This document shows positions 51,496 to 58,152 of a stretch of DNA of 64,000 nt, one piece after another. The translations under genes and the position numbers were made by a program. Source of the DNA: Bacteroidota bacterium (GTDB lineage: Bacteria > Bacteroidota > Ignavibacteria > Kapaibacteriales > UBA2268); contig SCSM01000040.1 in assembly GCA_004322215.1 (NCBI GenBank), positions 62,001 through 126,000 on the forward strand, read 5' to 3'. The stretch's first letter is position 1; each line of letters starts with the position of its first letter. The notes under the pieces are model-generated. The model did no database searches. It was not told the DNA's origin and worked only from the letters and a program-made list of their open reading frames with translations.

Positions 51496-53099
51496 CTCAA
51501 TATCTGAATTATTTCGGATTTCAATAATTTCTTATTACTATTAACACGCAAGATATACATTCCGTTGCAAAGTCCGGATAAATTAATTTTTTGAATTGTT
51601 CCAGTCCGGTCAAAATTCAAAGATTCATTCCCAAAAGTCGTAACGCATTCGCCAAAAATATTAAACAATCTGATTTCCGGTAGGGGCAATTCATGAATTG
51701 CCCCTACATTTATATTAATGAAATCCGTGGCAGGATTCGGATATAATAAAATATTGAAATCATTTTTATAATTTTCTTCAACCGACGTAACACCACTCCC
51801 TTTAATATCCAACGACAGCTTCCAACCCGGGTTTGAACCTTCTCCTGAATATGCACCATATTTTGATATTGTCATCTGATTACCATTGAAATCCAAGTCA
51901 TAATCAATATCTTTTTCCATAAACAAATAATCAACTTTTGCTTTAGATGTTCCTGATTTCGGATAAAAATCCATTTCTCCGATAATTGTACTTGGATTAT
52001 TAAAATATGAATCTGCTTCATTAATTAAACCGGTCAAATTATCATTTGCTGATTGTGCAGAAATTGGTGTAGTGGCAAAAATTGCATTCGCCATAATAAT
52101 TTGCTTTTCTGTTGGCACCGGATTAGTAATTCTAACTCCGATATTAACATTGTAAATGGAATTATTATATACGAAAATTTCTTTTGGACTGCGGCTGTTG
52201 TGCGGCTGAAACGTCATTGCACCTTCGGGTGAGATAACAAAAATATTATGATGAACCGATACATTCCCGGTTGCCTGGAGCAAAAATTCACGTGGATTAT
52301 TATAAAAGAAATTTCCGTAACATTCAACTCTGTCATCCGAACCGGTTCCACTGAGAGGTTGTCCGCCGAAAAGCACATTTGGTCTGTCTCCATCCGGTGA
52401 TTCGCGGTCATTCTTTGCAAAAACATTATGTCGTACAATTGTTGACGAGGGTAGTGTTGGAATACCCGGAAATGAAGGTCTATCGTTCTGATGTTTGATT
52501 TGCATGCAATATCCGACAGGATTCAGTACAAAGTTATACTCAATTATTCCCCTTATAAAAGGCATATTCCCATCTGAATTACCAAGATACAATCCCGTTC
52601 CGGCACTCATTATTTTATTATAGCTGATTGTCCAGTTCCAGCACGGAATTTTTGTAGAAATGCCAACTGTCTGCTGGTCTGAGTCATGTCTTATTATAAT
52701 ATTATTATGAATCCAGATGTGGTGAGCCCAATTCGTGGCACTGCCCGACGCCTTTATTGCATCAATATAAGGAATCTTATGTCCATCGAATTTCAATCCT
52801 TCTATTTTTATATAACTACAATCAGTGATGTCCATCGTATTGCTTCCGTCCCGTCCCAACAGCACAGCTTCGTGAGGCACTTCGGATTTAATAACAATCC
52901 AATTGTCAGCATACCCGTTGATGTTATTCAATCTTAATCCGTCCGTGTAATTCCCCGGTGTCAGCAACAATGTATCGCCTGCAACTAACTGGTCCCGAAA
53001 ATTAAGATAATTGGCTGGGTTAGCAATGTAGGTAGCGGTATGGAGACTAATGCATCCAAAAACAAAAAGAAGATAGTAAATAGTATTAATGATTTTCAT
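51492..53099 (-). CDS. Chondroitinase-B/PL6-like beta-helix protein with T9SS CTD containing a palindrome-encoded insert
   Basis: PANYLNFRDQLVAGDTLLLTPGNYTDGLRLNNINGYADNWIVIKSE; CTD NVGAIHELPLPEIRLFNIFGECV. Confidence 0.8.
   Translation of the reverse strand: MKIINTIYYLLFVFGCISLHTATYIANPANYLNFRDQLVAGDTLLLTPGNYTDGLRLNNINGYADNWIVIKSEVPHEAVLLGRDGSNTMDITDCSYIKIEGLKFDGHKIPYIDAIKASGSATNWAHHIWIHNNIIIRHDSDQQTVGISTKIPCWNWTISYNKIMSAGTGLYLGNSDGNMPFIRGIIEYNFVLNPVGYCMQIKHQNDRPSFPGIPTLPSSTIVRHNVFAKNDRESPDGDRPNVLFGGQPLSGTGSDDRVECYGNFFYNNPREFLLQATGNVSVHHNIFVISPEGAMTFQPHNSRSPKEIFVYNNSIYNVNIGVRITNPVPTEKQIIMANAIFATTPISAQSANDNLTGLINEADSYFNNPSTIIGEMDFYPKSGTSKAKVDYLFMEKDIDYDLDFNGNQMTISKYGAYSGEGSNPGWKLSLDIKGSGVTSVEENYKNDFNILLYPNPATDFININVGAIHELPLPEIRLFNIFGECVTTFGNESLNFDRTGTIQKINLSGLCNGMYILRVNSNKKLLKSEIIQILR
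51680..51707. repeat. 28-bp perfect palindrome GTAGGGGCAATTCATGAATTGCCCCTAC (in-frame within CDS)
   Basis: Direct reading; encodes VGAIHELPL on minus strand. Confidence 0.92.
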
Positions 53100-53120
53100 A
53101 ATAATCCATTCTAAAGTTGA

Positions 53121-53154
53121 TATATCATAAAAATACGAATTTTGTTATATATCA
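53121..53154. repeat. 34-bp direct repeat, left copy: TATATCATAAAAATACGAATTTTGTTATATATCA
   Basis: Identical to 54275-54308; a degenerate partial copy (AAATTGTTATATATCATTT) follows at about 53169-53187. Confidence 0.92.
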
Positions 53155-53228
53155 CACAACATTTATCACAAATTGTTATATATCATTTAGTAACTACAAC
53201 ACCTTATTTTATTATAATTTTTCTGATT

Positions 53229-54131
53229 TCAATAAAAATTCCAAAATTTATCTTTTTTCCAATCCATTGGAAATCCCATATAATGCAAGGGTATCTCAGG
53301 ATATTCAATCAATAAATTAGTTAACTTCTCATTAAAAGTTGTATTTGGATTAATGATTTTTGAAAGATAAAAAATAATAGTTAGAATTATATAAATTCTG
53401 TCTGCCCTATCAGGTATATTTGTCAGCCACTCATTATATGGATTTCTTGGTATCATTGGTTTAATTGGTAGTTGTCTGTTCCAAAGTCTTGAATGATGAG
53501 CGCAAATATTTCTTACGAATGAAAGTGATTCAAACCAGGATTCTAATACAATTGCATCTACGCCAAAGTAATGCGCAATTTCCTTTTTAGCTTTTGATAT
53601 TTTTAAGTTCTTATATAAGAGTGAAACCTGCCCTAAAGAAATTATTTCCAATGACATCCATGATGGAGGTAGTTCTGGTTCAGTATATTTAGTTTTATAA
53701 TGATTTATAAATATCTCTTTTGATGATTTTGTCGTATCATAAAGAATTTCGATAAACCTATTTTTATAATTAATATTTTTGTATAATGTTTCGTTTAAAT
53801 ACCAATGACTGCCAAATTCAATTGAATAATTATAAATCAGTTGTGTTTTGAAAGAATTTTCTATTCTTTCAAGTTGGTCGAAAATTAGTAAACGCAATTT
53901 CCTGTCAAAAATGAATGTTTTAATAATCTGGCTAAATTTAGTATTGCTTTTGAATTGATGAAGTTCATGTGGCGGTTTGAGAAATGTATGCCAATATCCA
54001 CTTAATTTATAATAGCTTATATTTTTTAAATATCTTTCTGCTTCATCATTATTATCTATAATCAAACCCCTGCTTTTAAGAAGTTCAATCTGCTCTGTGA
54101 AGGATAATGGATTTTTGTTGAAATTTGACAT
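53229..54131 (-). CDS. Abi_2 superfamily (AbiD/AbiF-like) HEPN abortive-infection protein
   Basis: YKLSGYWHTFL, FDRKLRLLIFDQLERIENSFKTQL, HWYLNE, SFVRNICAHHSRLWNR (RNxxAH HEPN motif). Confidence 0.9.
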   Translation of the reverse strand: MSNFNKNPLSFTEQIELLKSRGLIIDNNDEAERYLKNISYYKLSGYWHTFLKPPHELHQFKSNTKFSQIIKTFIFDRKLRLLIFDQLERIENSFKTQLIYNYSIEFGSHWYLNETLYKNINYKNRFIEILYDTTKSSKEIFINHYKTKYTEPELPPSWMSLEIISLGQVSLLYKNLKISKAKKEIAHYFGVDAIVLESWFESLSFVRNICAHHSRLWNRQLPIKPMIPRNPYNEWLTNIPDRADRIYIILTIIFYLSKIINPNTTFNEKLTNLLIEYPEIPLHYMGFPMDWKKDKFWNFY

Positions 54132-54150
54132 AGTTAATTAAAATGAAAAG

Positions 54151-54191
54151 ACTCGCCCTGGTGCGCTGTTCCTATGGGAAGCGTGGCGAGT
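54151..54191 (-). ncRNA. Candidate structured RNA / 5' leader hairpin of abi gene
   Basis: Minus strand ACTCGCC-A-CGC-TTCC-CATA-GGAA-CA-GCG-CACCA-GGGCGAGT then CTTTTCATTTT; GC-rich island in AT-rich DNA, 20 nt upstream of abi ATG. Confidence 0.6.
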
Positions 54192-54274
54192 ACTGTTAAT
54201 CAAAATTAAATATTATTTTTCATAAATGCAAATTTATTTTATAATATTATTTCAAACAATTTAGCGAATTACAT

Positions 54275-54308
54275 TATATCATAAAAATACGAATTTTGTT
54301 ATATATCA
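54275..54308. repeat. 34-bp direct repeat, right copy
   Basis: TATATCATAAAAATACGAATTTTGTTATATATCA, perfect match to 53121-53154. Confidence 0.92.
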
Positions 54309-54312
54309 TTTT

Positions 54313-54402
54313 TCACCACACCACAACTTTTCCTGTTCTGATATTTCCTTTTGACTTTACTTTTAAATAATACAATCCTTTTTGTAGGATGGATGTATTC
54401 AA
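54313..54402 (-). pseudogene. Orphan T9SS CTD fragment
   Basis: Minus-strand LNTSILQKGLYYLKVKSKGNIRTGKVVVW*; in-frame stop immediately upstream. Confidence 0.65.
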
Positions 54403-54508
54403 TTATATTTTGGCTAAAACATAGCAAATTGCTAATTTAATATTAAATTATTGTAAATACAAAGATTAAAGAGTTTAAACAATTTAAAATACTACAGTTA
54501 AATAAAAA

Positions 54509-55111
54509 ATGGATGAATTACAAATAGAATCAGTAATAAAAGAAGTTTCTGACTTTAACAAAAAGGCTGCTAACAAGGTAGATAATAGACTTGCTAAATT
54601 TTTAGAACTTTTTAATAATGAATTTCCTGAAAATAGTATTGTTAGATTTAAAGCTGAGACAATAACTTGGGCTTTTTTAGATACTGTATTATCTTTATAT
54701 GCAAATGGGAATAATAGTTCTGTTATTATTGAAATATATTCAATTATTGAAAAATTCGCAATTCGTGATTTGCCAAAATTTCTAAGTAGGAACAAAAAAG
54801 TACAATCAATAATTACTGATTTAATCGAACGTAAGAATTTAAATGAAATTGCAATATTCTTTGAAAGAATTGGTATTTGGTCAGATAATGATTTAATAAA
54901 TATAAAACAAATAACAAAAATTAGAAATGGAATTGCTCATAAAAGTGAAAAATTGATTGCAAAGGCTCTAAATAGTGGAAAAAAAACACATTTTTTAGAA
55001 ATTGACTCAATTGTTAAAGAATATGATTCAAGTCAATTTATTATTATTACTATTAATCTTTTATTAAAAATAATTTTTAATAAAAAATATTCAAATAATT
55101 TGAAAAAATGA
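54509..55111 (+). CDS. HEPN-motif hypothetical protein
   Basis: 200 aa, helical, KQITKIRNGIAHKSEKL (Rx4H) motif. Confidence 0.65.
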   Translation: MDELQIESVIKEVSDFNKKAANKVDNRLAKFLELFNNEFPENSIVRFKAETITWAFLDTVLSLYANGNNSSVIIEIYSIIEKFAIRDLPKFLSRNKKVQSIITDLIERKNLNEIAIFFERIGIWSDNDLINIKQITKIRNGIAHKSEKLIAKALNSGKKTHFLEIDSIVKEYDSSQFIIITINLLLKIIFNKKYSNNLKK

Positions 55112-55250
55112 AAAACTTCCTACAACACTTGATATGAACAATAAGGATTTGGTTGATAAAAGAGGTATCGTTTCTCGCCTCAAATTTCGTAACTATGAAT
55201 ACTAACATAGCAGGCAATTAATTACTTGTATTACTGCTAAAAGTAACCAA

Positions 55251-56363
55251 TTAATGCTTTACAAATATTTTACTTTTATCTTTTATTTTCAAATAATATA
55301 TTCCATCAATTAACTGTGATGTATTCATCTGTATTTTTATTTCACCTATTTCCTTATCTCCTTCAAAAACAGTCATCACTTCCCGTCCAAGCATGTCATA
55401 AAGCTTCAATGAAACAAAACCGGATATTGGATTGTTGAAACTTATTTCAGCGGATTCGCTGACTGGATTGGGATTTATTTCTAAAACTTTACTCTGAGTT
55501 TCAACATCCCCGACATCGGTAACACCAGACCAGCCGGCAACACGAGCCATCATCCACCAGAAAGCTTTTCCTTTCTGCTGACAATTCAAACATTTCGAGT
55601 GGGCACATCCACAGCTATTGCATTTACCCGGATTCGCTGCACACCATTCATCAGCCCAGTTCCCGCCATTATAATCACAGGCGTCATTCGCTCCTTTGTC
55701 AAGAAAATACTTTCCGTCGGGGTCGTAACTCTCGATGTCTGCAAAATCGAAAAGGATTTTATTATTGTCTCTGCAAAATGTTCTGATTTGCTCATTTCTC
55801 TGATTTACATTACCGTTCACACCCGTACCATTCAAATGTCCCGTCATATAAATAAATTTGATATTCGGGAATTCACTCTCCAACTGATTCATCAGGTTCA
55901 GATAAGTCTGAATATCGCTCTGTGAGCCGTCCACCTGACCACACCATGACCACATCACCATATTAATGTTTTGCGTATTATTGTTAAGCATCGTCCTCGT
56001 TCTCGTTGCCCATGTTGTTCTGTCAGGATTACCCAAATCCCCTGCGAGCAAAGATGCATCATTCAGATAAAGAGAGCCATCTCCTTTATTATACGTATGA
56101 ACCGAACCCGGCAAATTATTCAGCAGACTCATACCCGTAACAATCTGGCTTCCGTGAGAAGTATGCCCGTAAGCCAGCCGAAAATCCGATTTCGCCTGTT
56201 CCACCCAATTATCAGACACTTTAGTAATGTCACAGCAGCTATGGTCAATTATTATCGGTCTGTTCTGGCTAAACGCAGTCACTGAAATAAACAGAAAAGC
56301 AAGAATCAAAATCATCAAACGTGTTTTCATATAACCTCCAAAAAAATAATTTGTAATTTTCAA
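55251..56363 (-). CDS. Secreted hypothetical protein with Cys-rich segment and T9SS CTD
   Basis: Signal peptide, LAYGHTSHGSQIVTG, CNSCGCAHSKCLNCQQKG, CTD INPNPVSESAEISFNNPISG...GIYYLKIKDK. Confidence 0.75.
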   Translation of the reverse strand: MKITNYFFGGYMKTRLMILILAFLFISVTAFSQNRPIIIDHSCCDITKVSDNWVEQAKSDFRLAYGHTSHGSQIVTGMSLLNNLPGSVHTYNKGDGSLYLNDASLLAGDLGNPDRTTWATRTRTMLNNNTQNINMVMWSWCGQVDGSQSDIQTYLNLMNQLESEFPNIKFIYMTGHLNGTGVNGNVNQRNEQIRTFCRDNNKILFDFADIESYDPDGKYFLDKGANDACDYNGGNWADEWCAANPGKCNSCGCAHSKCLNCQQKGKAFWWMMARVAGWSGVTDVGDVETQSKVLEINPNPVSESAEISFNNPISGFVSLKLYDMLGREVMTVFEGDKEIGEIKIQMNTSQLIDGIYYLKIKDKSKIFVKH

Positions 56364-56742: not shown

Positions 56743-58152
56743 CTATTCTTTCACAAACATCTCCGTTTCATTTCCAATTTTTACAAAATACACACCCTCT
56801 GCCAATTTGGAAATATCTATCCTCATCCCTTCTTCTATTTGGATACGGGCAGGCATAAGGTTAAGGACACATTCTCCCAAAATGTTATATATACAAATAT
56901 CCTGAAGGGGCAATTCGTGAATTGCCCCTACATTTATTTCAATATAATTCGTCGCAGGATTTGGATAAACCGATAATGAAGATAATGATGAATTATCATC
57001 AACACCCATTGGAAGCCATTCATAAGCTCCTATATCAATTGTATAATGCAAGGGACGTACTCTATAAAACATTGGGTGTTCATACTCATAAAAAGGGATT
57101 AGACTCGTTCCTGATACTGAATCTGGGTCTGTTCCCGCATTAATTGCAGGATTCCCGAATAATAACTGATAATCATAATTTGTTTCATTCCTAAATCCTG
57201 CCTGTGTAACATCCGCAAAATGTATATTAGTTACAGTATCTGCTGTACCAAGTAAAACCTCACCAGGCCCTGTAAATATGTTATTAATTATTTTTGCTTC
57301 TGTTGTTCCTTGCTCAACATGGACAAAAGTCGCTCCTGCACTCCTTTTATTCACTATTGTATTGTTTACAATATAAAGCACATTTTCAGGATTTTTTAAT
57401 CCTTCAGCACCATAAGAAATTAATTTCTTGTTTTCAGCATTAGGTCCCTGCATCAAGAGATTGCCTATGATAAAAGATTTTCCCCCGTTCGGCAGGTCAA
57501 TCAGCATACTCGAATTTCCTGTTTCTTCATCCATGATTCTGTTGTACAAAATGTAATTTTCTCTGGCGCGGCTTTTCAGATTATGACCTATTTTTGCATG
57601 ATGTGAATAATTGAATCTGAACCTCAGACTTCTGACTTTTCCAATGTAAAGATTGTGAGATTGTCCGTCGCCATAACCATTATGGTTAAATTCCGATTGC
57701 ACGATAACAATATCACTACTGTCATTTGCACCCGTTAAAACTCCATCTTCATTATCGTGAAAATTGCAATGGCGGATTGTAAGATTTGTTCCTTCAAAGC
57801 GAATTCCAGCACCGTTTTGGTCGGGAACAGTACAATCCGAAAATTCGATGTATTCGATTACATTATTATTTCCCCCGACAACCCAAATCGCCTTGCCTCC
57901 TGAATTCTTTCCTCCTGCCGCAAGATGAGCAAAGCCACCAACACCACGAATTAATATATTATTTTTTAAGAAGGAGCATACATCACCAGAATATGTTCCT
58001 GCATCAATTTCGACAGTATCCCCATCCTGAACAGCAGCAGATGTTAATGCCTGGCTCGGAACTGCGAATTGCTTTCCCGACCCAACTTTAATAACACTTG
58101 AATTTGCAGTTAAACATAATAAGAACAATAGTAAAATTGTAGAAAGTATCAT
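56743..58152 (-). CDS. Secreted right-handed beta-helix protein with T9SS CTD containing palindrome-encoded insert
   Basis: LKNNILIRGVGG..., FNYSHHAKIGHNLKSRA; CTD VYPNPATNYIEINVGAIHELPLQDICIYNILGECV. Confidence 0.82.
   Translation of the reverse strand: MILSTILLLFLLCLTANSSVIKVGSGKQFAVPSQALTSAAVQDGDTVEIDAGTYSGDVCSFLKNNILIRGVGGFAHLAAGGKNSGGKAIWVVGGNNNVIEYIEFSDCTVPDQNGAGIRFEGTNLTIRHCNFHDNEDGVLTGANDSSDIVIVQSEFNHNGYGDGQSHNLYIGKVRSLRFRFNYSHHAKIGHNLKSRARENYILYNRIMDEETGNSSMLIDLPNGGKSFIIGNLLMQGPNAENKKLISYGAEGLKNPENVLYIVNNTIVNKRSAGATFVHVEQGTTEAKIINNIFTGPGEVLLGTADTVTNIHFADVTQAGFRNETNYDYQLLFGNPAINAGTDPDSVSGTSLIPFYEYEHPMFYRVRPLHYTIDIGAYEWLPMGVDDNSSLSSLSVYPNPATNYIEINVGAIHELPLQDICIYNILGECVLNLMPARIQIEEGMRIDISKLAEGVYFVKIGNETEMFVKE
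56907..56928. repeat. Palindromic dispersed repeat GGGGCAATTCGTGAATTGCCCC, in-frame within CDS
   Basis: Identical 22-mer to 1000-1021. Confidence 0.92.

Follow-up and report, generated by a model that had tools for sequence, protein, structure and literature searches.

Proteins of the Abi_2/AbiF family are HEPN RNase-like proteins that act as defence proteins or toxins. The AbiF relatives that have been characterised are growth-inhibiting HEPN RNases restrained by an RNA of their own (PMC12373285, PMC12737573). For one of them, PbAbiF with its RNA AbiFr, both the structure and the RNase activity have been described (PMC12737573); this pair comes from a Prevotellaceae bacterium (PDB 8VZ6; Zilberzwige-Tal 2025, as cited in PMC12737573 and PMC12373285). 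In C. difficile, readthrough into abiF from the promoter of the upstream RNA has been demonstrated (PMC12373285). An AbiF protein with its RNA is also the proposed ancestor of Cas13 and its guide RNA (PMC12737573, PMC12165695). A second protein relevant to the locus described here is SoFic, an AMPylating abortive-infection toxin (PMC12249575).

We analysed a stretch of 64,000 nt of bacterial DNA, referred to as the window, in which a gene of this kind lies beside a structured hairpin between two perfect direct repeats. With a probability of roughly 85%, the locus encodes a chromosomal AbiF toxin and its cognate abiF-type RNA antitoxin, resembling type III toxin-antitoxin and abortive-infection systems and placed at a site where AbiF and SoFic are exchanged. 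The basis is computed throughout: the protein family, the active-site residues, the RNA family and its covariation, the position of the promoter, the co-evolution of RNA and protein, and a comparison of the locus between species.

The abiF gene occupies positions 53229-54131 of the minus strand and encodes a 300-aa HEPN protein of the AbiD/AbiF family. Pfam Abi_2 (PF07751) matches the product over its full length (184/184, 3e-55), PADLOC AbiD matches it at 1.5e-74, and homology to chain A of PDB 8VZ6 extends across 289 residues (E 4.3e-61); the protein thus has both the Abi_2 domain and the length of an AbiF. Its HEPN active-site motif RNICAH (R207...H212; RNICAHHSRLWNR, 53496-53513, minus strand) aligns with RNSCCH of 8VZ6, so that the R-X4-H catalytic pair is kept, and R207 and H212 are invariant in the AbiF alignment. 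The preliminary description had recognised an Abi_2 gene with a HEPN motif from the letters of the sequence, and the gene is indeed a genuine abiF with an intact motif. By analogy with its characterised relatives, the window AbiF is probably a growth-inhibiting RNase.

The hairpin upstream of abiF (54145-54198, minus strand) consists of a 7-bp outer stem, a bulged A, a 3-bp inner stem, a 14-nt loop, a 6-nt 3' strand and a U-rich end. A scan with the Rfam abiF model had been proposed as a check. The outcome was negative: RF03085 gave no match in the window at the gathering score (37 bits) or even at E<=10, and it misses the RNA because the loop is longer. Folding of a single 151-nt sequence was mildly better than that of shuffles (z -1.66) and is by itself insufficient to establish an RNA. 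Comparison between loci was more informative. When the upstream regions of 90 AbiF loci were examined, a hairpin of the expected plan was present in 73, and in only 9 of 1305 control segments taken from these loci. Eighteen sequences of the window type align without structural help and were used to build a covariance model, R1, which scores the window RNA, one of these 18, at 73.4 bits. In each of the 18 sequences all 10 pairs are standard, and 6 of the 10 show changes on both sides, a number reached by none of 500 shuffles; the seed RNAs were chosen by a stem filter, which biases the percentage paired and does not produce the variety of pair types.

R1 finds matches upstream of nearly all of the roughly 90 AbiF genes, the loci that RF03085 detects included. 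The Rfam model recognises the short-loop members L005 (from the genus of the window), L007, L098, L111 and L120, and each of these is also recovered by R1. In the positive control phiC2, the RF03085 match and the best R1 match coincide on the RCd22 motif. Among 100 related genomes, R1 matches all 12 that bear AbiF and reaches E<=1e-3 in only 3 of the 88 others. Since R1 joins the AbiF loci that RF03085 detects with those that it misses, and since the control coincides, the window hairpin belongs to the abiF-type RNAs, with a longer loop that puts it beyond the reach of the present Rfam model. It shares with the known members the stem-bulge-stem plan, the covariation and the position upstream of abiF, and the initial assignment to this RNA type is borne out by a model other than the one proposed.

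R1 also matched in less expected surroundings. At L114, abiF-type RNAs at 1519-1572 and 2752-2805 lie on the upstream and downstream sides of a single abiF gene, which suggests tandem RNA-abiF units. L189 (G095) and L190 (G061) carry abiF-type RNAs at E ~3e-4 in genomes in which AbiF was not detected, and these are possible orphan antitoxin RNAs. At L179 (G067) and L197, a darT toxin gene (PF14487 at 4.6e-46 for L197) is preceded, at a distance of about 40 nt, by an abiF-type RNA that has the same promoter, and no abiF lies nearby; at L199, from the same genome as L197 (G094), the RNA follows a macro-domain (DarG-like) gene. The darT-linked RNAs may be leftovers of a swapped AbiF or may serve another toxin.

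The RNA appears to have a promoter of its own. TAnnTTTG is the consensus of the Bacteroidota promoter element, and in 46 of 56 loci this motif ends 2-4 nt before the start of the RNA model; the fixed position is the reason for the prediction. In the window, the predicted -7 element is TAATTTTG (54201-54208, minus strand), with TTTG at 54229-54232 as the -33 element and a 20-nt spacer, and it lies outside the 34-bp repeats. The abiF start codon follows only 14 nt past the modelled 3' end of the RNA; abiF is therefore presumably transcribed by readthrough from the same promoter, as in C. difficile.

This arrangement raises the possibility that the hairpin is a mere cis-acting leader or attenuator (terminator) of abiF, with no antitoxin role. 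The short distance to the start codon and the U-run at the end of the hairpin fit such a role, and in C. difficile abiF transcription is strongly reduced by the terminator that follows RCd22 (PMC12373285). However, RCd22 also acts in trans and binds the protein (PMC12373285), and in the window-type RNAs the loop is about as conserved as the stem. In addition, four loci that form a clade within the family of the window (L009-L012) carry the RNA on the strand opposite to abiF, in divergent orientation. Attenuation of abiF is impossible there and only trans action remains, which argues for trans action in this family. The genus also has a second AbiF, whose RNA is identical at 50 of 50 positions in G001 and G003, although the G003 toxin gene is truncated by an internal deletion; an intact RNA beside a broken toxin gene is what a toxin-antitoxin pair predicts. 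A role confined to the leader is, on balance, highly improbable.

The RNA and the toxin are also linked in their evolution. Each RNA was placed in a class by hand on the basis of its sequence, and the AbiF tree requires 12 changes of class, where shuffles require 42.3 on average and none of 200 has as few. Between the genome of the window (G000) and its sister G002, the RNA is identical at 65 of 65 positions, with 74.5% identity for abiF DNA and 69.8% for the AbiF protein. The co-evolution and the divergent RNAs are consistent with direct binding as in type III systems. Tandem RNA repeats of the toxin-processed, ToxIN-like kind were looked for, and the region upstream holds a single RNA motif and no tandem repeat. 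The preliminary description had proposed a toxin and RNA-antitoxin cassette that would be mobilised or deleted as a whole when the repeats recombine. As to the pair, homology and the comparative evidence agree with it, and a type III-like toxin/RNA-antitoxin pair is a well supported prediction for the window locus. Binding of the RNA to the window AbiF and its neutralisation would be expected from the characterised relatives. The proposed movement fared less well, given the single copy of the element in G002 and the operator-like nature of the repeat.

The repeats themselves are as first reported: a perfect 34-bp direct repeat, with copies at 53121-53154 and 54275-54308, encloses a single ORF, the Abi_2 gene, and a single GC-rich hairpin. 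The window contains exactly two occurrences of the 34-mer, where shuffles give an expectation of 0, and the whole 4.2-Mb genome contains no others; the sequence is absent from 59 relatives even with up to 3 mismatches allowed. The left copy, directly upstream of a 535-aa gene, is part of a longer, operator-like conserved block of 72 bp (53117-53188) that contains a second repeat of TGATATATAACAA. The right copy, an operator-like TGATATATAACAA element, precedes the RNA and abiF. The window holds a partial copy of the element upstream of the RNA and a fuller one after abiF.

The sister species give this element its context. In G001 and G003 the two secreted-protein genes that flank this site enclose a SoFic gene, immediately preceded by the TGATATATAACAA element; the 72-bp block of the window is 89-90% identical to this upstream DNA. 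The protein has Fic_N, Fic and SoFic-like_C domains and matches PADLOC SoFic at 8e-101, and SoFic is absent from G000. G002 has one element region upstream of its RNA and abiF and no second copy, and its abiF runs straight into the 535-aa gene. An empty site with one repeat had been predicted for sister genomes: one operator region is indeed kept in G001 and G003, but the site holds SoFic and is not empty.

Both occupants have diverged about as much as their neighbours. AbiF is 69.8% identical between G000 and G002, with 70-84% for neighbouring genes, and SoFic is 80% identical between G001 and G003, with 67-79% for its neighbours. Both are therefore old at the locus, and the window cassette is, as judged from this divergence, long resident and not freshly mobile. 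Most likely, the locus is an exchange site for two interchangeable suicide-type defences. The outgroup G018 lacks the cassette, and a different gene precedes its 535-aa homologue, so that it is uninformative on the first occupant. The support of quartet sites in the flanking genes for a split of G000 and G002 from G001 and G003 comes from one gene alone. G001 and G003, and no other species of the genus, have an esterase-like gene (L028:3999-5129, L030:7200-8336) between their 370-aa and 469-aa neighbours; together with SoFic it marks a two-by-two split of the genus.

The TGATATATAACAA element belongs to this locus. The four genomes of the genus have nine exact copies, eight of them here, and a search of 100 relatives gave copies outside the genus at about the chance level only. 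As a general SoFic operator the element was rejected on this distribution. Immediately upstream of roughly half of the SoFic relatives there are significant direct or inverted repeats, so that a putative autoregulatory operator of SoFic is a reasonable interpretation of the element. Both 34-mers might then have been kept as functional operators, one for the RNA and abiF, and the other, formerly that of SoFic, for the 535-aa secreted-protein gene. Conservation of the element at the locus in four species and almost nowhere else, the repeats upstream of SoFic relatives and the SoFic-like_C domain are compatible with this. However, SoFic is missing from G000, so that a SoFic autoregulator cannot act there now, and the spacer between the half-sites is identical as well. 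The perfect identity of the two 34-mers points to a later, possibly recent, duplication or gene conversion, and two retained operators are unlikely.

The other explanation of the repeats, put forward in the preliminary description, is that the RNA and abiF form a mobile unit for which the 34-bp copies are a target duplication or recombination sites, and which is lost by recombination between them. Perfect repeats do tightly enclose the unit, and the sister sites without AbiF retain one operator region. Of 86 AbiF loci, 11 have direct repeats of at least 19 bp around the cassette, compared with 4 of 518 control intervals of the same size from these loci (p ~2e-7); this is a lead only, as window size and threshold were fixed once the initial results had been seen, and some of the loci are related to each other. 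Further AbiF loci gave 5 of 28, and thus 16 of 114 overall. However, the excess over SoFic genes, of which 3 of 40 have flanking repeats, is not significant (p = 0.40), and the repeat lengths of 19-64 bp are unlike the target duplication of a transposase or integrase. The window cassette has no recombinase gene, G002 shares the order of operator, RNA and abiF and lacks the second copy, and abiF has diverged nearly as its neighbours have. Moreover, the repeat here is a recognisable piece of a local operator-like element. The operator explanation is simpler at this locus, and a mobile cassette is somewhat unlikely. More generally, AbiF RNA-toxin pairs might be recombinase-free cassettes whose spreading leaves perfect repeats of 19-64 bp and which swap with SoFic, possibly also with DarTG, at fixed sites behind a shared control element; we consider this doubtful.

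Other features of the neighbouring DNA were noted. About 875 bp of the window (54413-55287) are absent from all three sister species and lie between the 370-aa gene and a further copy of its 3' tail (54309-54412). An ORF of 200 aa at 54509-55111 of the plus strand has the sequence RNGIAH and a weak match to HEPN_Apea (E 0.024, below the cutoff); no homologue was found in 59 relatives. A palindrome, GTAGGGGCAATTCATGAATTGCC..., occurs at 51680-51707, at 56904-56931 and also at 1002-1024, in frame within secretion-tail domains where it is translated as VGAIHELPL, with 5 strand matches in the window and 0 expected.

In summary, the pair of toxin and RNA may work as follows. The RNA would be transcribed from its own promoter, TTTG-N20-TAATTTTG, and would end at the U-rich terminator. 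The stem-bulge-loop RNA would bind the AbiF HEPN dimer and block its RNase site. A minority of transcripts would read through into abiF, with its start codon 14 nt downstream. Phage infection or stress might upset the supply of RNA, and the freed AbiF would then cleave RNA and stop growth. The two 34-bp repeats would be part-copies of the TGATATATAACAA element that arose by replacement or later duplication, and not the ends of a mobile element. Toxicity, RNA binding and phage defence are ascribed to the window pair from its characterised relatives, and for the history of the repeats, the operator function and the trigger we infer only.

Pairs of this kind were already known. As far as the literature consulted shows, the new elements are a class of long-loop RNAs that Rfam misses, the clade with divergent RNAs, the exchange of SoFic and AbiF, and the excess of repeats. 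The current Rfam model fails to detect most of the Bacteroidota-type AbiF RNAs tested. The class of the RNA tracks the phylogeny of the toxin, and the clade with divergent RNAs is a natural test of trans action. In sister species AbiF and SoFic share one slot, so that defence modules are swapped at a single spot. SoFic (PADLOC SoFic; PMC12249575) resembles the window system as a single-gene abortive-infection toxin that, in G001 and G003, takes the place of the cassette behind the same upstream element; in contrast, its protein and mechanism are unrelated to AbiF, and G000 lacks it. The window RNA shares with RF03085 a 6-bp stem, an unpaired A, a 3-bp stem, a loop and a 6-nt 3' strand, and differs in its longer loop of 14 nt and in the letters of the loop and 3' strand. 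AbiFCd-RCd22 of C. difficile prophages (PMC12373285; phiC2) has a like RNA upstream of abiF, with the stem-bulge-stem plan and the readthrough arrangement, and AbiFCd is about 31% identical to the window AbiF. However, RCd22 has two abiF motifs and belongs to a phage lysis module, whereas the window has one motif in a chromosomal setting between secreted-protein genes. PbAbiF-AbiFr, compared by protein through 8VZ6, is about one third identical, as judged by eye from the alignment. It has a homologous AbiF (289 residues, E 4e-61) with the same R...H pair and a gene paired with a structured RNA. The Prevotellaceae AbiF loci in our set carry the same RNA family as class B, and the window RNA belongs to class A, with its bulged A and CACC strand.
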